DNA of 64,000 nucleotides from Hoplostethus atlanticus (Eukaryota; Chordata; Actinopteri; Trachichthyiformes; Trachichthyidae). A program made the translations under genes and the position numbers. This document shows, piece by piece, positions 4,853 to 48,240 of this stretch (positions are counted from its first letter, which is position 1; each line of letters opens with the position of its first letter). The notes under the pieces are model-generated. The model searched no databases. It had not been told where the DNA came from and saw only the letters and a list, made by a program, of their open reading frames with translations. The DNA lies in contig JAXDDX010000024.1 of NCBI GenBank assembly GCA_034670405.1, positions 3,588,501 through 3,652,500 of the forward strand, given 5' to 3'.

Positions 4853-5350
4853 CCTCTTGACAGCCCCGGCGGCGACTAAACCGTGCAGTAGAGACGTTCA
4901 GCTCTCCTCGGATCCTCGTAAACGCTACCTAAAGTGTGTCTTTTCACCAGTATCCATCGCTCACGACCCCGGTGTCTCCATCTGTGATCGTGAGAAGCAG
5001 CGGTCTCTCAGTCGGCTGTTTTGATTTTCATGGCATCCTTGTGAAGAGCCATGTAGCAACCGGGCAGATATAACAACCTCTACTCACGGTGCTGGCTGCA
5101 TTTCCGGAGATATTTCACCACGTGCAACTCAACAGATCGTCTTGTATGTGACTCCCTGGATATTTTAGTGTTTTATTCCTGCAAAAAAAAAAATCTTTCA
5201 TGCAGTCTCTCTGTGTCCTGCTCTGCCTGTACAGAGGTGGCCCTCGCTGTAGCAGAGCAATGCGAAACGTACATTGCATTCACACGTCAGATGACTACGC
5301 TGGGCATGCGTACTGCGATTTTCCCACCCCTCCGGGAATACGTTTGAATA
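4853..5350 (-). promoter_or_regulatory. atp11a 5'UTR and promoter region (inferred)
   Basis: This is GC- and CpG-richer sequence directly upstream of the atp11a start exon. The minus strand has no acceptor-like break before the ATG, so it probably carries the 5'UTR. The transcription start is not visible. A near-consensus NRF1 palindrome (ACGCATGCGCGA, about 5738-5749) lies further upstream and may belong to the same promoter. Confidence 0.4.
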
Positions 5351-18993: not shown

Positions 18994-20172
18994 ATTATTG
19001 TTGATAAATAAATAGAAGTTATGATTGAAATTAAATTAACATTTAAATGATGCAATTAATAAAACAGTTAATAAAGAAATTAATAAAATGTTCTATTATT
19101 GTTCAATTATTAGTTGACAAAAAAAACACAAAGTCCAACCCACACTGTAGTAACAGGAGCTCTCATTGGCTAGCTGACACACCCTGTTTGCAGTAGGCAA
19201 GCAGCACAGTGTCAGGGACGGGGAACGCTCAAATTTAATCAAAAAGCAAAAACACTGCACTGAAGACTGAATTAGGTGTAGTATGTAGAATGAATATCTT
19301 TGACAAAGAAAGGTTTTGCACAGTAAAATATGGCATTTGCGATTGAAAAATATTTAATTGATCAGCATGAGGATACAGATGTTTCAGCGTAAAGCGTTCA
19401 TCAGTGTATTGGTGAGAATAGGTTATTTCTCAAAAGAACCATCAATAAGATCATCACACCCTATACTGACCTGAAATGGCCTACATTGATATTACTGCTA
19501 AGAAATTTTGAGAAACTGGGATTTGTTCAGTATGCTAGTAGTTGCTCGATGGCTTCACTGATGATGTTAGGCTAAAGTTAACCCCGGCTAATGGCTAATG
19601 CTAGCTCTTACCGTCCACTGGATTTACTCCACCACTGTTTGATGGGTTGGAGGAGGACTGTCTACACAGTCAGGCTGGCCTCCATCTGGTCTGCCAGACC
19701 AGGCTGAAGTTGAGGGATCCCCGTCCCTGACACTGTGCTGCTTGCCTACTGACGGCCAATGAGAGCTCCTGTTACTTCAGTGTGGGTTGGACTTTGTGTT
19801 ATGTTTAGTGTGGCACACTGGCTTAATGTTGTCTAATTAAAAAGATTCACTCAATAATGAAGTGTGGCCCAGACAGGAAGTATAAATAATAAAGCAGTAG
19901 ACAAATTAATTGTGAGATGGAAAATGAAAAGGAAAACACATTACTAAATGGAATTACAAAAAGTAAAACTTCAATGCCTAAAAATCATTTTACAAATCGA
20001 TTTATAAATATCACTCAAAGACAGACTCATGAAATGGAATTATTATTTCACACATTTAATGAACATTTTATTGTTTTATTAACAGTTTTATTAGGTGCAT
20101 CATTTAAATGTTAATTTAATGAATTACTTTATAAATTGTTTTTAATGTTTCTATTCATTAATCAATAATAAT
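18994..20172. mobile_element. Non-autonomous DNA transposon with long inverted arms
   Basis: Outer arms (about 18994-19100 and 20041-20172) share, in opposite orientation, TTAACATTTAAATGATGCA and TAATAAAACAGTTAATAAA-like blocks. Inner arms (about 19124-19222 and 19719-19800) share ACAAAGTCCAACCCACACTG, AACAGGAGCTCTCATTGGC and GTAGGCAAGCAGCACAGTGT. The right arm carries about 240 bp (19801-20040) missing from the left, so the arms are unequal. AGTGATCC abuts the right end. On the left, AGTGATTA lies at the end and a perfect AGTGATCC lies 8 bp further out, which suggests an 8-bp target-site duplication as made by hAT-type transposases. No transposase frame is present. Family is inferred from that duplication only. 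Confidence 0.7.
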
Positions 20173-23954: not shown

Positions 23955-25112
<1,158 letters not shown>

Positions 25113-30472: not shown

Positions 30473-31507
30473 CTAAATGTGTGTTAGAGGGACCGTCCCG
30501 TTCACTCCGGCCGTGGCGCTCTGGTAATGCTGCGGCAAGGCGTGGAATCTACTTTGCACTGACGGGTCTGCCGGTTCTCCGGTTGGTAAATACATGCTTA
30601 TCATCTCTCTCAAGTCTCCGGGGCAAGGACCCCGTGAGTGTGTGCTGCTGACGGGAGGGCTTACACTCGGCTCCGACTTTACCAGCGACCCTAACGTCCC
30701 CATGGCAGCTGAAGTGGAGACGCCGGAGCCCTGGTGCTGCGTGTAGGTGATCCCGCCGTAGCCGGATGGAGAGGCGCTCATGTAGCTCTGAGAGTTCGAG
30801 ATGGGGCTGTACTGCAGGGTTGTCATGTCGTAGCGGTGCATGGGCTGGGGGTTGTGGGAGTGATGGTGGTGCGAGTGGTGGTGGTGGTGCGCCCCGCTTC
30901 CCGGGTGCTGGCTGTAGGCTAGCTGAGCCTCCTGCATCATCGCTGCGGCCGCCGCGGCTGCAGCCACCTGCCCCGAGTACGCACCATTCGCCCAGCTGTT
31001 CATGTGCGCGTAGCCGGAGCTGGCGGAGCCCCCGTGACCCCCGGGGCTCTCTAACCTCTGTCCGACCCCGGATGAACTCATGCCGACCCCTAAACCAACT
31101 CCACCGGGCCCACCAGCCCCAGAAAGCAGCCCACCAGCGAGGGAATACTTGTCCTTTTTCAGCAGCGTCTTGGTCTTCCGTCTTGGTCGGTACTTGTAAT
31201 CCGGATGCTCCTTCATATGCATGGCTCGCAGCCGTTTCGCCTCGTCGATGAAAGGGCGCTTCTCAGTTTCGGACATCACCTTCCACTCGGCACCAAGTCG
31301 CTTGCTGATCTCAGAGTTGTGCATTTTGGGGTTCTCCTGTGCCATCTTTCTCCGCTGCCCGCGGGACCACACCATGAACGCGTTCATCGGTCTCTTCACC
31401 CGGTCCTGATTCGCTTTAGACCCGCTGTTCGGCCCCGTTTGCCCCGTGGTCGTATTCGTTTGGGGTCCAGGGGAATGGAGGTCAGTTTCCATCATCATGC
31501 TATACAT
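30473..31507 (-). CDS. sox1: Sox1 transcription factor (SoxB1 HMG-box), single exon
   Basis: The complete intronless reading frame has 344 codons and a TAG stop. It starts [14 protein letters not shown] and ends NGTVPLTHI, the hallmark ends of vertebrate SOX1. The HMG box spans about residues 36-110, with RPMNAFMVW at 39-47 and [12 protein letters not shown] at 61-72; it bends DNA in the minor groove at ACAAT-type sites. The basic tail [14 protein letters not shown] (105-118) follows. Further along are a glycine-rich linker (125-165), an eight-alanine run (182-189), a histidine-rich stretch (207-219), the sumoylation-type motif VKSE (276-279) and a Ser/Pro-rich C-terminal activation region. 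SoxB1 proteins keep neural progenitors undifferentiated in the nucleus, usually with POU partners. Length and order are normal and no frameshift is seen. Teleosts keep sox1a and sox1b. The neighbouring atp11a exon favours sox1b, but the paralogue is not proven. Antisense frames over this gene are shadows. Confidence 0.98.
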
Positions 31508-36120: not shown

Positions 36121-36167
<47 letters not shown>

Positions 36168-36194
36168 GCACATATACAGCACAGTATTAATCTC

Positions 36195-36226
<32 letters not shown>

Positions 36227-36237
36227 GAGATTCTTCC

Positions 36238-36284
<47 letters not shown>

Positions 36285-36291
36285 ACACAGC
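36120..36291. repeat. (CA)n, (TATC)n, (CT)n(CA)n microsatellite cluster
   Basis: Three arrays lie in a row: CA (36120-36162), TATC (about 36196-36226) and CT/CA (about 36235-36290). Confidence 0.9.
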
Positions 36292-36319: not shown

Positions 36320-36480
36320 TGTTAGCGTTTGTTTCAGATAGAATTAACCCCTGACTCAGATCTGTTAAGTCTCTGCTCCCATCCATTGATCACTGAAATT
36401 CAGATGGATTCACCTGTGTTAATTACCTGAGAGATTAATTTCTCTCCCTCTAACCCTCACTATTCCCATTTGTTTTCCTA
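36320..36480. promoter_or_regulatory. Candidate regulatory block with paired E-boxes (copy A)
   Basis: This contains CAGATGGATTCACCTG (36401-36416): E-boxes CAGATG and CACCTG four bases apart, inside a 30-bp sequence (36394-36423) repeated in reverse at 46567-46596. ATTAA-type homeodomain cores flank it. E-boxes of these types bind proneural bHLH factors and Snail/ZEB repressors. Function is inferred. Confidence 0.4.
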
Positions 36481-37235
36481 ACAGAGTAGCAGATCCTGGC
36501 TAAACAGTTCAGGCTGGCTGAAGTGCCGGATGTTGATTCCCTCCTCGCCTATTAGAGTCTCCTTGCTAATCGCAGTCTGTTGGCCACAGGGTTGCCAGAG
36601 CAGACAGACTCCCAAACTTGTGGCTGCTGTAGCTGGCAGGTGTCTGCCGTGTCTTTGCTGTTTAACACATCCATCTGCTTGGCAGTGCTGGCAAAGCCAT
36701 GGGGGATGACATGGGGCTCCTATAAAAGCGACTGCTTGGCCCCATGATTGGAATATTTTATGATCATGCAACATGTTACGAGGAGCAATGATGACAAGAT
36801 AATTCTTCAACAGGACAAAGATATGCAATCAGGCAGAATGTTTGAGATACAGTGTTGCTTTATTGCAAAAATGACAGATCTCCTTGCCTGTGTACAATGT
36901 CATTGCTGTATAATGACTGGATGAGTTTAACAGGACAGACTGCGGGCAAGCTCTCCCACACACTGAATAAAGGAATCAGGGAGGTTGTAAATGTAGCACA
37001 ATGAAATCTGTGATATTAACAATAACAATGTAAGTTTGTATCTGAATATGTCTAGTTCTGAACTGAATCTGCATTAGTTTCAAAAGGATTATTACTTTAA
37101 CGAGGTACCTGAATAATCCCAATCTATTTTCTTGGGCACAAACCCTACAAACAATTATCTTGTTACGCTCTTCCAATGCTGATCCATGGTGCAGTCTGGT
37201 CACTTCGTGCATGCCCGGGCCACGTTAACATCAAC

Positions 37236-37530
37236 CACATAAGCAATAACCCATGACAGGCCGTGGTATATGGAATTTATATCACAGTCAAGGTGCGTTA
37301 CTTGCCTGATGCACAGCAGAGGGACTACTTTGTCACAAAATACTGTAAAAGTAGTCCGAAGCAACAACCAAAGTTAGTATCCGACCTGCATAGAATGTTT
37401 ACAGTTTTTTTTTTGTTTGGCCAATATTTACAGTGGAGTAATATGGAACGAGGAAGAGGCCGTCATGGTAAGTATGGTATATAGGATATGCATGTACCAT
37501 GCTTGGTATATATAGGATATATACCACAGC
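37236..37530. mobile_element. Possible degraded MITE with GTGGTATAT ends
   Basis: The left part has GCCGTGGTATATGG (about 37260) and the right part has GGATATATACCACAGC (about 37515) in opposite orientation. The ends resemble common fish MITE ends, but the match is loose and boundaries are unclear. Confidence 0.3.
37434..37467 (+). other. Exon-like cassette A (34 bp)
   Basis: A pyrimidine-rich acceptor (ending ATTTACAG) precedes 34 bp containing an ATG with MERGRGRH, then a consensus donor (ATG|GTAAGTATG). It joins in frame with the cassette at 37821. It could be the start of an unknown small gene, a transposon-derived exon or chance. Confidence 0.25.
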
Positions 37531-37820
37531 TGTTTCTCTAGTTGATTAAGCTACTGATGCAGAGACTAATGGCCAATAACAGTTATACAACAGGTAAATA
37601 TGAGTTTTTAATTGCCTTTTGCTTCATTTTGACACTTAAGTCAAGCTCTTCAATAATGTGTGTAGCCCACATTTATATGCTAAAACTCTTTATAGATTAA
37701 TGCTCTGCTATGGTATTTGATTGGATTGTTTTACTGGTGTTGTACTTGTGTGACACTTTAAATTCTCAAATTTTCTGTTGCACTGTTTAGCTAGTAATTG
37801 TGAAATGTTATCCTTAACAG

Positions 37821-37865
37821 GTGAATCCAAATCTGGGGCCATAGCTGTACATGATTTATATGAAG
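37821..37865 (+). other. Exon-like cassette B (45 bp)
   Basis: The acceptor TTATCCTTAACAG and donor GAAG|GTATGT enclose 45 bp. Its reading frame continues from cassette A without a stop (ESKSGAIAVHDLYE). No third exon with a matching phase was found. Confidence 0.25.
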
Positions 37866-39433
37866 GTATGTATAAATATTATTTTCAGTGGGACAAATGT
37901 GAGATTCCTGCAATGTCTTGGTTTATATATACCTGCCATCTGGAATTTAGTTTTCTTCTTTTAAACCATGCTTCTGTTTGGCCTTAGTGTGAACATTCAT
38001 GACACATTCATCAATACACAGGATGTATATATACACAATACACATTCCCTTGTGCCATAATCCAGGGCAAACACTTGTAGAAACCCAATTCAGATATTAT
38101 ACGAATGATACAACAACCACCAAATGAACTCTATAGCAAACATCAGGCTACACCGTCATAAATCTACAGTCATTCGTCAGATGGCACCTTTCACCAACTA
38201 CCTACTCTAGCCAATAGCGCTACGTGGCATGTCATTGGGGTTATCAAGTGAGCACCTTTCTTCACCGATTTTCCGTTGAGTTGGGCCGACGACACCATAA
38301 GAAGGGGCAACAGTGTATTCCATTCATTAACCTAGCCTTGACTCAACATCAGTATAACAATACAACCTATCTATATGATACAACAACACAACTAGACGAA
38401 ACGAATAGTTCAGTATTAGGCTTTCTATCATGAAAAAAAGGCTGGAAATAAATGAATTAAGTCCAGTTTCTGTGTTGGTCACCACTTCCGATTTCCAACC
38501 AACTACTGCCATCCATCAATTTATGCTCTCTTTGCCAGTTTGAAGACTTGGGTACTAAATTCCTACACTTTTCTGTCCCTTTGGCTTTACCAGTAATACA
38601 CAATATTCTTTCTACTCTCAGATTTTTGCCATATTTTCAATCTAATTTCAATTTCATAAACTTAATTTCACAGATTGTTGATGATGACGATGCTGCTACC
38701 ATCTAAGGTGACCTCTCTACATTGATCCTTAACATCTTCGTTGTCAGGAAAGCCAGCAATGAAGCCATTGTCAAACCAGCTGGGCGAGCCAATGAGGGAG
38801 CAGAGGTTATTTTTGGTATTCCTGGTGTGGCACATGCATGTACCTACCTGACGCCTTATAAGTTTTTTTTAGAAGAAACTGAAATATACCTTTGAGTTTT
38901 TTCAGAAAACTCTCTCTAGAGTTGGAGGACGTGAACAAAAAAATGTCCTCCAAGGTCCACACTTTCAAGGTCAGTCTACATGCCTAAGAGCCATGTAGAC
39001 CTTGAAGGCAGAGGGTTTTAGTGAAGTCCCTCCTGTCAGGTTGGAGTTTTCATTTTAACTGCTAATTGTTCTTTCACTTGAAGATGATTAATTCAGATTA
39101 TGCAGACAAACAATGTAAATGGACTGTTTTAGCTTTTGTGTGTGAGTTTCAACCCTGCAAGAGGTTCTCAGGGTAGAAGAAATTATTATGTTAGTACCTA
39201 TCTAGTTAGTCTCCTGGCTCTTACTTGCAGCACACACACAATATGTATTCTCTATCTCTGTCTCTCTCTGATCTTGTTCTCTCTCTCTCTCTCTTTTTTT
39301 TGAATGCATCTGTTTTGGCATAGACGTGGTAAATCCTTAAGAAAATGTCATTTCACTTTGCTGATGCCCATTGCATATTTTGTTAAAATATTTGTCTGTG
39401 GGGTTTCAACTCTGTAGGATGTTCTCAGGGTAG

Positions 39434-39437
39434 ATAG

Positions 39438-39488
<51 letters not shown>

Positions 39489-39520
39489 CTTTATTGATCC
39501 TGGGGGGATTGTTATACACT
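39434..39520 (-). mobile_element. Truncated retroposon 3' tail with (GATA)n
   Basis: Read on the minus strand it is GGATCAATAAAGTATC followed by a TATC array, the tail type of a widespread fish non-LTR retroposon. The array is 39434-39488. Only the last few dozen bases remain. The family is not named. Confidence 0.5.
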
Positions 39521-39525
39521 GTGAA

Positions 39526-40471
39526 CAGGTCCTTGAAAATGTATTCATACTCCTTGACTTCTTCAACATTTTGTTGTGCTGTTATTTCAGACTGCATTTG
39601 TTTAGTATTTTTGTCTGGGTTATATGCAAAGCCCTTCATTCTATCAAAGTGAAAACAAAACAGTAGAAAATGTATGTTAAAGTTAATTCAAGTACAAGTA
39701 TTCAACCTTTGCTTCACTTAGGCTAAACAGCCACACTAGTAAACATTTCTTATCTACTTAGATGTCATGTTTAGATTGTATTTAGTGGTGCTGGTATCTA
39801 GTGGTTTTCCTTTCAAACTTTTTTTTATTTTGTCTTTTCATGCTAACAAAGCTGAGACATGGTCCCTCCAATACATCTTAATGGGACTTAATGGTATTTT
39901 ATTTTTTTGGGTGGACTCTCCATCAGAACACTTGAGCACAGCATGGAGTATATGGTTCATTTATGGATGACATTTGAGACCACTTCTTGAAATATCACAG
40001 AAAATATAAATCATCACTGTCCCATCACTATATTTGAAAATACAGAAAGTGCAGTTTCACTTTATTTTTCCAGTCCAGCTTTACTATGGAAGTCAATGGA
40101 GTCACATTGGACATGAAAAACCCACTAAAATTGCACCCTGTATTTTCACAAACAGTGATGGGAGGGTGATTTGTATTCTCTATGAAACTTCAGGAACTGG
40201 ACTCAAATGTCATCATGAATGTTGAAGTATCCACACTTGCTATCCAAATGTTGCTGATGTGGATCAAATTAAGCAAATGGGTTGAATACTTAATGCATAC
40301 TGCAAACTCAATTTCTCTGTTAATTGAATTTTGATTTCACTTTGATAGAATAAAGGGCTTTGCATAGAACTAAACAACACATACAAAAATACTAAATAAA
40401 TGCATTGAGAAAAAACAGCTCAACAAAATGTTGAAAAAGTCAAGGGGTATGAAAACATTTTCAAGGAACTG
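39526..40471. mobile_element. Non-autonomous DNA transposon with about 190-bp inverted repeats
   Basis: The left arm (39526-39715) and right arm (about 40280-40471) are reverse complements through the TCCTTGAAAATG end, TTTTCAACATTTTGTTG-like, TTTAGTATTTTTGT, GCAAAGCCCTTTATTCTAT-like and AAGTATTCAACC blocks. TA follows the right end (40472), as for Tc1/mariner insertion. The core (39720-40280) has no transposase frame. The left arm starts just after the (GATA)n retroposon tail. Confidence 0.75.
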
Positions 40472-40499
40472 TAAAATAGCACTTCCATTTGTACTTATT

Positions 40500-42048
40500 T
40501 TATTCAGGAGGATTTTATAACCTCAGGTGTTTATTGCTCCTCTCCTGGCTTTTGACTCTTATATGAATATATTCTTTATTTTGTTATATATTGTGAATCC
40601 CTGGAGTTCTGCACTTATAGCACTTCAGAATGTTAGAAATGTAGCTCCATTTTGTTTCTCTCTGTCATACCTCCTGCCAAACGGAGTGTGCAATGTATGT
40701 GGATGTTTGTCCAGTCTAAAAGGAGAGGAATCTTCAGTATGTTTGTTGCGGTCATTTTCACCAAAGTAAATAAGCAACTAAATGTAACTTTTAAATGACA
40801 GTTCTGTTTCAGAAAAACAAAGCGGATCCCACTTAAAATAATGAAATAATTAAGTTGGTTTTGCTTATAAATGGACTTAGTAGATCATAGATTCAAAATA
40901 AGAGTATCGAAGTGCTAAAATCAAGTTTGCTATATTCAGGAATGCATTTTTTAAGTACAAAAACTGAAGTGGCTAATAAAAAGACTGGTCTTGCTGGAAC
41001 CATATAAAAATCTGATGCAAATAGTTTTTATGTAGAGCAAGCTGTATTTTTTTTATCAACGCATTCTCTCTAAAATCTTGTTTAGCAAGTTTAACAAGTT
41101 GGATACATTCCATTAATGTGCCGTAACGAAGGGGATGTCATCATTCCTTCAACTCAGCACAATGTACGCCCTATACAATGTCATGATACTCATCATTGTA
41201 TTTCTTTTCTGACTCATTAGACAAGGAGCGATTAACCAACCTTTGCACCTTTTTATCTTCTTACTACCCAGGATCTGCCTCTCTGCAGATCAAAACAAAA
41301 CTTTGTCACTTTGTTAGATGTTGATTCTACTGGATCGAGTAAGCAATTACGTAAGTTTGAATAAGTAAAAAATGTGAACTAATTTGATCAAGAACCAGGA
41401 GATTGACAGAAATTGGTAAGTTAGGTAAAAGCAAAGTTGAAACTATAGAGAAAGAAAACAAGAAAGAGAGAAAGAGAGATCAGGTCAGGGTCAGGCCTAA
41501 AAGCATTGAGGAAAGATTGAGCCAATCGGCTAATAGCAGAGAGGGTCTCGGCTCTGTTCATATGATCTATCTCAGACAAACACAAATCTCCATAAGCAGA
41601 CCCTCAAAAAACAAAACAAGAAGAAATGAAACACACACGCACGCACGCACACACACAAATCCAGTGTTGGAAATAATTAGCACTCATCACATGTAAAAGT
41701 TAGTAGTTGGTAAAGATTGGTTTAAATAAAGGATTGCAAGACTTATTTATAGCACTAATTTATAGTATTTTGTAAATAGCGCAATCCTTCAAGTCCTCAT
41801 TGAGTGCTAGAGCAGAATGCTAGCCCCAAACTGCCAAACAGAAAGTCTACATTTTTTGACGGAGAGAGCGTAACATACCATTCAAATCTGGGGCACTCTT
41901 GTCTAAAAGCAATTTGTTCTTTTGTTGCTCCATGTGCTCTAATTTCATCTTCTTCTCTGAGTAACATCATATGATAGTAGAATAGAAGGGTTAGATAGAG
42001 GGGTGAATCAAGACAGAATGACATGAAAAAGTGAATGTGTCTGTGTGT

Positions 42049-42084
<36 letters not shown>

Positions 42085-43420
42085 CCAGGGAGGCCAATGT
42101 CAATCCCATGGCAAACAGCAGTGGATAATCATGGGCTTTGGGAAAACACTGTGTCCATAATGCTATTACCCGGGATTACCTACTCCAGCAGAGAGGGCGA
42201 GACTCTCTTCACAGTGTGCCACAGACCTTTCAGATAATCATCTTATCACAGATGACAAACCCAGAAGAAACATCCCATTATTCAAGAAGAAAACCCCTAC
42301 AGCATATTTACATGAAGACATAGGGCTATATTATTGGAGTGGAAAAATATCAGATTTTCAAATTAGCACACCAGTCTTTCCCCCACTATCTCTCTTTTGC
42401 TCTCTCTCTCTTCCTCTCTCGCTGTCTCTTTCTCCCGGGGCTCTTTATTTTTTCCCTGCAGGGCAATTAGAGACAAGATTTTATGCATTGTTCGGCTTAT
42501 CAATTAGCCATAACACCTTCCCCTCTGATTGGTCTGTAATGAGTGTAATGCTTTTTAACAGTCAGGAGTCGCAACTCTTAGAGGGGCTGTGCTAATGGTG
42601 TCGCCACGGCAATGGATTCACAGTAACAGCTCCGTGGAAGGGGGGGGGGGGTAGTCAGCTCTCCCTAACACATCTCTAATTAGAGCTCACAGTCAGTCAT
42701 TACTGATGTAATAGGGTATAACACTAATGGCTATCAGGCAAGCCCCCACAAACAACAGAGGGGGGTTATGAGAGTTGTAAGGTGAGAGGAACAGAAAATG
42801 TATAGAGGAGAAAATGTCTGGAGATTATCGTGAGGAGACGAGGTGAAATGGAAAGTAATAGGGAAAGCGGGGGAGCAAGGAGTGAAGGGAGAGATTAGAG
42901 GAAAGTGCACCAAGCAGCAGAAGAGGTTTTTAATGTTTTAATGTAGAGTAGTCAGTCAGGGGAGGTCAGGAACCATTAATGGAAGACTTTTTTTTTTGAT
43001 GATGCTGAATATCTGCCACGTTACATACTGGCCAGAGATAGGGACGGCAAGAAAGCATAGGTAAAAACAAAATGATGAGCGGCTTGGTGGGGTGAGGTGG
43101 AAAGCAGAGGAAAGTCAGAGCAAGAGTGACAGAGATGAGGGTGAGGGAGAGGAGGGGGGGCAGTGAGATGGTCGCCTAGTTAAGCACTTTGGCACTTAGA
43201 CCTTGTTAGCACTGATGTACTTTACAGCCGTAGCAGCTATTGATGTGTTTTTACACTTGTCAGCACTAAACTGCAACTACTGTAGCAAAATCGGGGAACT
43301 GGAGGTACAGATGCGGAGGGTGGATGACAAGAAACCAATGTTAGGAAAACAGAAAGGTGAGTGAATACGATTCTTCCTCACTGGCCTCTCTCAGGATAAG
43401 AATCAGGTCTGGGTAGCTAG
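40500..43420. other. Intergenic, no gene seen
   Basis: AT-rich to about 41400, then mixed sequence with a short CACG run (41632-41657) and a GA run (42047-42085), a C/T-rich patch (42378-42440) and a G run (42639-42650). A candidate enhancer is listed separately at 42450-42660. Confidence 0.4.
42450..42660. promoter_or_regulatory. Candidate enhancer with SOX and homeodomain cores
   Basis: It contains CAATTAGAGAC, a SOX-type CATTGTT (42486-42492) overlapping ATGCAT, ATCAATTAGCC and CTGATTGG. It is repeat-free and of high complexity up to a G run at 42639. Candidate only. Confidence 0.3.
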
Positions 43421-45020
43421 CGTCGTGGTCAACATTATGGGCACCCTTTTATTTTTTTGTTAGCATTTTCCCTTTATTTGACAGTCAGCTGTAGAGAGAG
43501 ACACAGGAAAGATGGAGTGAGAGAGGAAAGATGACATGCAACATAAGTCCTGGGTCAGATTCAAACCCATGATGTCACGGTTACATGGTAGCTATAGGCC
43601 TTAGACTACTAAGCCACCAGGACGTCCCGGCACCCTTGCATTTGCAGATAATATACAATATGTTCTGAAATTATTGGAAACTGAAACAACATTCGGTCTC
43701 CACACATTCATCTATCGATTTACAACATCAACACATCAAACAATAAGAATAAAAAAATAAAATCTTTAATGGTTGGCCATGATTATTGGCGCCCTTTACA
43801 ACAATTCAAATCAATTTTGTTGGATTCTCATTTTCCTTGTAATTCAACTCCCCTGTGACAGGTTGCAGGTTCCCACATGGTATAAATGAACCAATTATCT
43901 ATTTAAAAGTGATAAAACAGTCTGTTCTGCTTCCCTGGTTGTCTGTGAAGAGAAAAGATCTGTCAAGTCAAAAAAACTATTCATTCATTCATGCATTCAC
44001 AAGGCTATAAGGCCATCTCTAGAGACCTTGGTATTCCTGTTTCCACAGTTCAAAATGTTATTAAGAAGTTTGCTGCTCATGGAATTGTTAAGAATCTCCA
44101 GGACGTGGTGTTAAGAGGAAATCTGATCTGATGTTGTCAAAGGTGTGAGCCATTGAAGAAACACCTTGCATCACATCCAAAGATCTCAAGGCTGACAACA
44201 ATGGCTTTATGGTCGGAAGGCCACGGAAGAACCCACTGCTGAAAGAGAAACACAAGAAGGACTGACTGATATTTGCCAAAACCCACCTGGACAAACCTAA
44301 ATCCTTCTGGGAAAATGTTCTGTGGATCGATGAAACCAAATTAGAGCTCTTTGGCAATGCAGATCAGCGTTTTGTTTACAGATGACGAAATGAAGCTTTA
44401 AAAAAAAGAACGCCCTACTTACAGTCAAGTACGGTGGAGGTCCCATAATGCTGTGGGGCTGCTTTGCTGCCGTGGATACCGGACGTCATGAATGTATTAA
44501 GGACATCATGAAATCAGAAGATATGATGAAAAGTGCTACCCAGTGTCAGAAAACTGGGTGTCAATTGAAGGTCATGGGTCGTCCAGCAGGACAATGACCC
44601 AAAACACACATCCAGAAGCTCCCAGGAATAGTTCAAGAGAAAATGTTGGACTGTTCTGGAGTGGCCAGCAATAAGTCCTGATCTCAATCCCATTGAGAAC
44701 CAATGGTGAGACCTGAAATGTGTAGTTGGTCAAAGGTATCCTTTAAACATTGAAAAACTGGAGTGGGTTGCAATTGAAGAGTGGGAGAAACTGCCAGCGG
44801 AAAGATGCAGGAAGCTTATTGATGGTTACAAGAAACGTTTGGAAGCAGTCATCATTGCTGAAGGCTGTGCAGCTATTAGAAAAGCATGCCAATAATCATG
44901 GCCATAGACACTTTTCAATTTTGAAGCCCGATTTTATGTTTGTTTTCTTATTGTTTGGTGGGAAGATCGAAAGTTGTTTCAATTTCCAATTATTTCAGAT
45001 GATATAAGATATTAGGATGT
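43421..45020 (+). mobile_element. Tc1-like transposon, copy 2, dead, with SINE insertion
   Basis: This is the same family as copy 1. The left outer repeat GTGGTCAACATTATGGGCACCC (43425-43446) is split by a SINE at 43449-43628. The inner left repeat TGGCCATGATTATTGGCGCC (about 43775-43794) and inner right repeat GCCAATAATCATGGCC (about 44889-44904) are present; the outer right repeat is lost near 45010. The transposase is broken by frameshifts and by a deletion of about 57 bp near 44195 that copy 1 lacks. It keeps ATCGATGAAACC (first catalytic Asp) and CAGGACAATGACCC (second Asp). Confidence 0.9.
43449..43628 (-). mobile_element. tRNA-derived SINE nested in the Tc1 terminal repeat
   Basis: Read on the minus strand it opens with a tRNA-like head: A-box TGGCTTAGTAGTCTAAGG and B-box GGGTTTGAATC. 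It continues with CTGTGTCTCTCTCTACAG and ends in a short AATAAAGGGAAAATGC/A-rich tail. GGCACCCTT flanks both sides (43440-43448 and 43629-43637), fitting a target-site duplication of the interrupted repeat. Confidence 0.8.
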
Positions 45021-45710
45021 GGCGTAGGTGGAAATTGGCATAATTGAAAATGCTCTGTTTGGGAAGGAGCCAGTAATGCCCACCAGGTGATTTTTATAAC
45101 ATAACATTCAATGGTTACATAGCAGACAAAGGTCTAGGCAGTGCAATAACCCAACAAGTATCTACACAAGCAAGATAAGCAAGAGACAAGCTGTTAAATC
45201 TTATAACAGATGAAACTGTCAACAAAACACATAACTCACAAACGCATGCCCCCATGGTTGTTAGAAAGGATTTAACTGCCAGTGGGCTGAATTTAAACCA
45301 AGGATCTGATTACTTTCCAGTATACCAAATTAATAGTTCTCAGCACAAATGAATGCCACGTCTAACATAGGTTAAATGAAACAATTTCATTGAAGACACA
45401 GAAACAGAAATGTGTAAAAAGCAGAGAGAAAAGACAAAATACTGAAATTATTTTTTAAAATGCTGTTGTTGAAAGAATGCCAGAATTTAGCTTCTACAAT
45501 GTATTTTTTTGTATTTTGATACAAAATATTTATATTTTAATTCATATAATTGAATACATTTCTTGACACCCGTAATTTGTAAAGACACATTTTGATGTAT
45601 TTTTGCCCATCTTTGCTATTGTGTGCAGTAACCTTACTACAGTGGCAACACCTTGGCCTTTGGAGGTAAAGGACTTCAGGGGGGCTCACTATTACTTGAG
45701 CTCAGCCACA

Positions 45711-45768
45711 GTGTGTGTGTGCGTGTGTGCGTGTGTGCCTGTGTACGTGTGTGTGTGTGTGTGTGTGC
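45711..45768. repeat. Interrupted (GT)n microsatellite
   Basis: GT with GC interruptions. Confidence 0.85.
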
Positions 45769-46317
45769 AGCTGAGGCTTAGGGGGGCTCCTCAGTTGCCT
45801 AACTATGGTTGGCCCATACCCCCTCACCCAGAATTTGAAATAAGGTCATCGTCCCCGGGAGGCCCCAAGTCAAAGCCTTCCTTTTTCACCTGCCCTTTAA
45901 CTCTCTTCACCCCCCTCCTCTTCCTAATTTTCCAGGGTCCCATCTTGCCCTCCTTCCTTCCCTTTATTTCCTTATCTTTCATTCCATTTTTCCTTGTTTG
46001 TACTATAATGGCTGATTCATTGGGTAGATTTCATGGCTTCCCAAAGAGAACATGAAGACCAAAGAACGAAGCATCACAATGATTCACCAGCCTCTTCAGT
46101 TATGCTTAAATTAAACATTGCCCTTTAGCTCAACAGTTGTAGTTTGTTTTTGTTTGTTTGTTTTTCTCTCAGCCTCTGCAAAAAGCAGCTCTCAGTAATG
46201 GCATTGGGCCTTAATACTGTAATTTGATTGGAGAAATGAATATTTTGGATTAGCAAAACATTAGAAAGAGAAATGGCATCGTTAGTAGATAAGGCAGGTA
46301 ATAAGTGTATTAAAGCT

Positions 46318-46318
<1 letters not shown>

Positions 46319-46376
<58 letters not shown>
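46319..46376. repeat. (GT)n microsatellite
   Basis: About 26 GT units ending in GCGCGC. Confidence 0.9.
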
Positions 46377-46439
46377 CGTGTCAGTCAGACTGGAGCAGCA
46401 CAGATGCATATCCAATAGGAGGCTGAGTGAGCAGGACAA

Positions 46440-46660
46440 TAACACACTATTCTAATGCTAATCAAGGAGGCCATTAATGTTTACATTCAAAATCAGGCCC
46501 TTCCAAAGAAATACATTCACTCCCTGCTAAACTAGGATAATTACTTCCCTCTTAAACCCATATTCCATTAACTCAGGTGAATCCATCTGAGTTTCATCAA
46601 ATTTCTGCTTTATTTTGTATGATAATGCAATTTAAAAGCAAATGACATATTCAGACTACT
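46440..46660. promoter_or_regulatory. Candidate regulatory block with paired E-boxes (copy B)
   Basis: It contains the reverse-orientation copy (46567-46596) of the 30-bp paired-E-box sequence at 36394-36423, with 28 of 30 bases equal. Homeodomain cores (CTAATGCTAATC, CCATTAATG, GATAATTAC) and ATTTAAAAGCAAATGA surround it. Confidence 0.4.
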
Positions 46661-47557
46661 GGTGGAGGGAGGGCACCTATGATGAAAATAAATATGGATA
46701 TGTGTAAAATGCATCATGTTCTATTCTACCTGTAATTGTCAATATTTAAAAGAGTTTCCATAATTTAGTGTGACTGGTTTAGGCATAAATTCATCTTTAA
46801 CTGTAAACAGCTTATTGGAGATTAGTGACTGATGCTTCAAATGCCTACTGCTGGTTTTCTGCTTACTTAATACCTATGACACTTCATATTACAGCATCAC
46901 CCTGATGCCGTAAGGCTGACACCACAAGGCCTACTGTTGGGGACAGTGTAAATTTCCTCATTTAAAGGGAGCTTGTTCCACAAAACAACTTGCCCGCAAC
47001 TCACTAAAATAACACAGAACCACCTTTGGCTTCGCTTTGCTGAGTGAAACGCTCGCTTGTGTTTGGTGTTTTCACCAAAGGAGGGAGGGAGGGAGAGAGT
47101 GTGAATGGAAATCGCTGGTCTCTATTGATCCACAAACATACACACATGCACGCACACATGCACGCATGCACACATCAAGCTGACCAATGGAAGTCTGGGC
47201 ATTTTTTTTTTCCAGAATAGTTCAGCAGCATCAGCATTCAGACCCCCTCCAACTCTGTCGTGCTGAAAACACAAAAGCCCAAACAGAAAACTCTGCTTGT
47301 GCCATGCACTTCTCCCATGGTGAGAAAAAGAGAGAGAGAAAGAGAGAGAGAGTGTGGTGTATGGATGTTTGGGAGTGGGGGTTAATATTTTATTTCATTT
47401 ATTTTATTTCACAAAAACATTTAAATAAAAAAATACATTACATCTCCCCTCTTGTCTTAGACTCTATGTCTTTATTTCTTATGCTCCGTTACAACACAGG
47501 CATTTACTGTAGTGTAAACACTTTATGATTTATACAGGTAGTGTAGCCTCAGATGTT

Positions 47558-47835: not shown

Positions 47836-48164
47836 CTGGGGTTGATGTAAGCCTATGTAGCCGGCGTTATGAAAAGCACGCTTATGTTGGACTATGCAAG
47901 GACGGGATGCGATCAGGTGGGTTTGAGGGAAGTCTCTATGACAACACTTGCCAACAGAAAGATAAAATTGGGTCACGCATTGCCTCAACATAAATCATAT
48001 TAGCATATTAGCAGAGTAGGCCTACTGCAGGAACTGATTACACATGTATTTCCCTTTTCATATCTTTCCATTTTCTCTCTCAAAATACTACGTCCCCCTC
48101 CTGCCCCCTTTTCTTCTTGCTGATTAGTGCTGCTTCATTTGCTGTGTGTGATAATTTCCAGTCG

Positions 48165-48240
48165 TCCTTTGATTATTAATGCTTAATTTACCCAGATTAC
48201 ACTCCTTTGATTATTAATGCCTAATTTAGCCTGATGACTC
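48165..48240. repeat. 38-bp tandem duplication with homeodomain cores
   Basis: Two units (48165-48202 and 48203-48240) share TCCTTTGATTATTAATGC, then TAATTTA, and diverge in the last third. Each carries ATTA/TAAT cores and CCTTTGAT, a TCF/LEF- or SOX-like core. The block sits in repeat-free sequence and may be a regulatory element. Confidence 0.7.

Follow-up and report, generated by a model that had tools for sequence, protein, structure and literature searches.

Conserved non-coding elements (CNEs) flank both sox1 genes of Fugu, with 11 of them lying around sox1.2, and at least half of the elements are partitioned between the two genes (PMC1896008). One SOX1 CNE in Table 3 of that study has a counterpart near SOX2, so that conserved elements are to be expected near a fish sox1 gene and duplicated ones are of a known kind. 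Similarly, a 32-nucleotide CNE of HOTAIR and its HOXD paralogue have been kept as two copies, the flanks of which show limited homology (PMC7139118). Here, we analyzed a 64-kb stretch of DNA from Hoplostethus atlanticus (the window), in which a 30-base sequence with two E-boxes occurs twice, in opposite orientation, upstream of a gene that we read as sox1.

Two copies of a paired E-box sequence upstream of sox1

Copy 1 of the 30-mer occupies positions 36394–36423 on the plus strand and copy 2 positions 46567–46596 on the minus strand. The two agree at 28 of 30 positions, differing by one C/T and one A/T exchange, and their longest exact match is 17 bases. Coordinates, strands and identity had been given in an initial annotation of this DNA and were exact on re-checking, as was the common core CAGATGGATTCACCTG, which lies at 36401–36416 on the plus strand in copy 1 and at 46574–46589 on the minus strand in copy 2. 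The core of each copy reads CAGATG-GATT-CACCTG. In copy 1, a spacer of 4 bases separates CAGATG (36401–36406) from CACCTG (36411–36416), and in copy 2 the boxes appear on the plus strand as CAGGTG (46574–46579) and CATCTG (46584–46589). The centers of the E-boxes are 10 bases apart, and each end of the core has a CAG half-site pointing outwards. Elsewhere in the 64-kb window every place shows at least 11 differences in 30 positions from either copy and there is no third copy; the sole smaller value, 10 of 30, was obtained for copy 2 on its other strand. The paired 30-mer is a real feature of this DNA.

The gene in question is an open reading frame for 344 amino acids on the minus strand (30473–31507), which contains the Pfam domains HMG_box and SOXp and for which the nearest solved structure chains are those of SOX-2. 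Both of its ends presumably match SOX1, and we read the frame as sox1, a name that derives from these end sequences and from the initial annotation. As sox1 is encoded on the minus strand, higher coordinates are upstream, and both copies therefore lie upstream, at 4,887 (copy 1) and 15,060 bases (copy 2) from the start codon. CA/GT microsatellites are found at 36124–36289, about 105–270 bases from copy 1, and at 46322–46370, 197–245 bases from copy 2. When each copy is read in its own direction, the two microsatellites fall on opposite sides of it. The region around copy 2 (46440–46700) is AT-rich and non-repetitive, contains homeodomain-, GATA- and E-box-type words and gives the impression of a conserved enhancer.

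Comparison of the 400-base flanks, oriented like the 30-mers, gave a local score of 19 on either side, which is at the level of shuffled sequences (means of 19.0 and 18.7). On these scores a plain inverted segmental copy was rejected, and the initial description of the flanks as unrelated is borne out. Of eight combinations of 100-base flanks, seven were at chance level and one scored 26. In this case, a pyrimidine-rich block beside copy 1 (36436–36466, plus strand) resembles a counterpart beside copy 2 (46538–46566, plus strand) in direct orientation. As a single comparison this likeness has a p of 0.007–0.011 (0.007 from resampling and 0.008 when random places of the window serve as background), and with correction for the best of eight, 47 of 1,500 random sets reach the score of 26. 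Background places for these flank tests, including the best-of-eight test, and for the test of second arms described below were taken under a first mask that hid half of the window, and a looser mask, used for listing pairs, hid 22%. The loose TAATT..CCCTCT..AACCC resemblance noted initially is thus present but marginal. Being direct on the window, it runs against the orientation of the 30-mers and cannot belong to one inverted copy. It may be due to chance and is the main detail left unexplained. A short A-B-A' element, with the 30-mer as A and this block as B, was also considered and rejected, because neither locus has the second arm that terminal inverted repeats would predict (p = 0.72 and 0.45).

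The 30-mer has a partial symmetry. In copy 2, 24 bases (46570–46593) form an imperfect dyad with 10 of 12 pairs in the frame AACTCAG..CTGAGTT, and the same 24 bases in copy 1 (36397–36420), which departs from this frame at one base per arm, form 8 of 12 pairs. The two E-boxes alone account for four of the dyad's pairs. In the intact window, and above the complexity cut-off used, no complex 24-mer other than that of copy 2 reaches 10 of 12 pairs; in joined unmasked sequence there were 2 such dyads, a difference that comes from other masking or from joining. We rejected the dyad as stand-alone evidence, given a mean of 0.71 per simulated sequence, and it is notable only in that it coincides with the repeat. 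The strands assigned to the copies are correct, and their opposite orientation weighs less than had been assumed because the 30-mer itself is partly palindromic.

A possible bHLH-binding module

The explanation that we favor, although not quite to the point of belief, is that one short module for the binding of basic helix-loop-helix (bHLH) proteins has been kept in two cis-regulatory elements of sox1. Observed directly were two copies with a common geometry and a position upstream of sox1, as well as flanks that lack homology when oriented alike; binding, enhancer function and constraint are inferred. An identity of 28/30 over 30 bases between unrelated flanks favors a module, because a longer copy decaying neutrally would be expected to stay similarly alike throughout. 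Also, the arrangement CANNTG-N4-CANNTG is found at three complex places in the window, two of which are the copies of the 30-mer. The outcome of the simulations and the rarity of paired E-boxes (both given below) are further points in its favor, as are the CNEs around the Fugu sox1 genes (PMC1896008). Judged from its sequence, the pair may plausibly be interpreted as a regulatory switch, as the initial annotation had done, in which constraint on the two copies was presumed.

The module would consist of two E-boxes spaced 10 bases center to center, which is about one helical turn, within a partly palindromic frame. CAGATG would be bound by an E-protein together with a CAT-preferring partner of the NeuroD, Neurogenin, Olig or Twist type; Tal1 is a further partner with this preference. 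CACCTG would be bound by an E-protein dimer, and both dimers would be placed on the same face of the helix. Owing to its nearly symmetric frame, such a module could act in either orientation, and through its two elements one pair of factors would act on sox1 twice.

A review of bHLH proteins describes a structure of Tcf3-Neurod1 on CATCTG, in which Neurod1 occupies the CAT half and Tcf3 the CAG half, and names CACCTG as the sequence that homodimers of TCF3 select (PMC8431614). Another sentence of the same source assigns the CAT half-site to TCF3 in heterodimers of this kind, so the partners may stand in either order. CAGATG and CACCTG, with their CAG, CAT and CAC half-sites and a spacer of 4, agree with the sequence pattern of a class A bHLH E-box pair. 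The pair had initially been called bHLH/ZEB-type, of which the first part fits the known sites and the second does not fit well. The sites of ZEB proteins comprise two separated CACCT(G) in variable spacing and orientation (PMC8304685, PMC3795639), and since the 30-mer contains one CACCT, the ZEB reading is weak and the E-boxes would seem to fit class A bHLH dimers better. Within 150 bases, the next CACCT(G) is found at 102 bases (copy 1) or 92 bases (copy 2) from the center of the core, and an overlapping CACANNT-type match is present in copy 1 and not in copy 2. A long-spaced ZEB site would be possible, though the repeat itself does not point to ZEB.

Several observations weigh against a bHLH module. 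Thirty bases are more than two E-boxes require, and single E-boxes are common, with 46 occurrences of CACCTG/CAGGTG and 57 of CAGATG/CATCTG in the window. A dyad with 10 of 12 pairs is ordinary, at least one being present in 48% of 300 simulated sequences, and the symmetry is weaker in copy 1. TAATTA adjoins CACCTG in copy 1, and copy 2 lacks it there. The Tal1/Gata composite has the form CTG N6-9 GATAR, and an E-box-GATA composite was rejected, as none of the 26 matches to this form in the window overlaps either 30-mer; the one nearest to the copies starts at 46524, 43 bases to the left of copy 2. Zebrafish data count in favor of the module in one respect, as sox1a/sox1b expression in the KA' region drops strongly in tal1 mutants and disappears in gata3 mutants (PMC5884927). 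However, row 1 cells have unaffected sox1 in both mutants, and the authors of that study suggest a failure of KA' neurons to differentiate, in which case sox1 may be lost only indirectly.

A more far-reaching version of the module, which we consider doubtful, is that the whole dyad of about 24–30 bases, with a fixed geometry and including the bases outside the E-boxes, was reused in two sox1 enhancers. The dyad would then be the unit of selection and would be read by a higher-order bHLH assembly, which would perhaps bridge the enhancers.

Repeats, chance and local copying

An explanation that is unlikely, yet has to be taken seriously, is that the two 30-mers are short pieces left over from one dispersed repeat, for example the end of a miniature inverted-repeat transposable element (MITE) or the core of a short interspersed nuclear element (SINE), which by chance lie near sox1. 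Two Tc1-like copies (about 23.97–24.94 kb and 44.0–44.9 kb) and other elements with inverted arms (19.0–20.1 kb and 39.5–40.5 kb) are indeed present in the window, and transposon ends can look like a partly palindromic 30-mer. However, the likeness ends at 30 bases on either side, no target-site duplication is seen by eye in the outer flanks (..GATCAC versus TCAAAT..), and the A' arm is missing beside either B block. Also, simple arithmetic indicates that two copies in 64 kb would be unremarkable only for a repeat with about ten thousand copies per gigabase. The 30-mers as the two ends of one 10.2-kb transposon were rejected for want of a target-site duplication, again by eye. A known structured RNA was rejected as well, since no Rfam family matched the window at its gathering score. 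Searches with a degenerate 30-mer in viral contigs and with its last 26 bases in prokaryote contigs gave 0 exact matches, a result that bears on contamination only and says nothing about fish.

The presumably Tc1-like stretches 23970–24940 and 44006–44919 are alike and in the same orientation, with 93% identity over 260 bases and further matching blocks; the open frames around the second one are short (at most 91 amino acids). Inverted arms of 97 bases at 39525–39621 and 40376–40472, which are 88% complementary and 754 bases apart, look like a foldback or MITE-type element. Nested inverted matches (19149/19755, 19203/19719 and 19037/20096) occupy 19037–20113, which is probably another foldback element.

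That two unrelated 30-mers came to be alike at 28 positions by chance is improbable. Simulated sequences were generated from an order-3 Markov model, fitted in 4-kb blocks to the unmasked window minus the Tc1-like copies (47,056 bases), and they exclude low complexity as well as Tc1-like copies. A complex pair at two places with at least 28 of 30 matches was obtained in none of 1,509 simulations, with at least 27 in 1 and with at least 26 in 12, and palindromes at one place reached 28/30 in 9 cases among the 1,509 simulations. In earlier simulations, which did not separate palindromes from two-place pairs, at least 28/30 was found in 1 of 241 runs and complex cases in 5 of 1,690, and the eight matches printed from the set of 1,690 were all read as palindromes. 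Chance is thereby bounded at roughly 0.2% per window. In favor of chance, Markov sequences are more even than real genomes, and if very many windows are scanned some such pair is expected and would still be met. On the other hand, the matching 30-mer also contains two E-boxes, and two non-overlapping E-boxes are rare (282 of 32,306 complex 30-mers, 0.9%), which leans against chance. The repeat of the 30-mer is thus probably not a chance event.

A listing of unmasked 30-mers that have a common exact 8-mer and agree at 25 or more of 30 positions, with the Tc1-like copies set apart, yielded six pairs in the window, among them the pair upstream of sox1 (28). The others were the foldback pair 19191/19722 (30/30), two pairs inside the inverted arms near 39.5/40.4 kb (28/30 and 26/30), the direct repeat 48164/48202 (27/30) and 25081/43426 (25/30), which joins ends of the Tc1-like copies. 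The direct repeat, of 30 bases, extends over 48164–48231 with 38 bases from start to start.

Slightly more improbable still is a relic without function, in which about 30 bases were copied within the locus by duplication, inversion or template switching, and for which the single locus, the inversion, the shortness and sharp edges of the pair and the second weak likeness adjoining both copies would speak, but this likeness is wrongly oriented for a single inverted copy, and an identity of 93% without function needs a recent event, which would be visible in the flanks if it had comprised more than 30 bases.

Comparison with known systems

If both copies of the proposed bHLH module were conserved in other fishes, the early neural gene sox1 would have the same rigid module in two enhancers, which would provide a natural test of fixed spacing and symmetry versus loose collections of sites. 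If the pair were instead a repeat fragment, it would be a further warning against calling short repeats near developmental genes switches. The 16-base core and its reverse complement gave no match in a search of the text of 5.39 million papers, which would miss sequences in figures and supplements or in other papers. Among the sox1 enhancer publications in the matches listed, no title or abstract opening describes a paired E-box element.

With bHLH E-box pairs, such as the TWIST1 double E-box and E-protein/proneural pairs, the 30-mer has in common two close CANNTG boxes with CAG/CAT and CAC/CAG half-sites. In the TWIST double E-box, however, the spacer is 5 bases, whereas it is 4 bases here. 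The Coordinator motif of TWIST1 and homeodomain proteins, which comprises an E-box, an A-rich spacer and TAATT[A/G] (PMC11960506), was rejected, since copy 1 reads CACCTG TGT TAATTA, with a spacer that is not A-rich, and copy 2 has no TAATTR there. The bipartite sites of ZEB1/ZEB2 resemble the 30-mer in that each copy contains one CACCTG, and differ from it in that a second, separated CACCT(G) is part of the bound site (PMC8304685, PMC3795639).

Among short elements kept in two copies, the HOTAIR CNE is a precedent for the size, with about 30 bases, two copies and diverged flanks, but it is located on two Hox clusters and conserved across jawed vertebrates, and the excerpted text mentions no E-box dyad (PMC7139118). 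Duplicated CNEs (dCNEs) are likewise short non-coding sequences repeated near vertebrate genes for developmental transcription factors (PMC1896008). They are defined by vertebrate-wide conservation and lie near paralogous genes, and the excerpts of PMC1896008 and PMC2781166 describe no local inverted pair at one gene. In contrast, the 30-mer is known from one window, within which both of its copies lie upstream of one gene and 10 kb apart. As in dCNEs, more than one near-identical non-coding copy (28/30) is present near such a gene.

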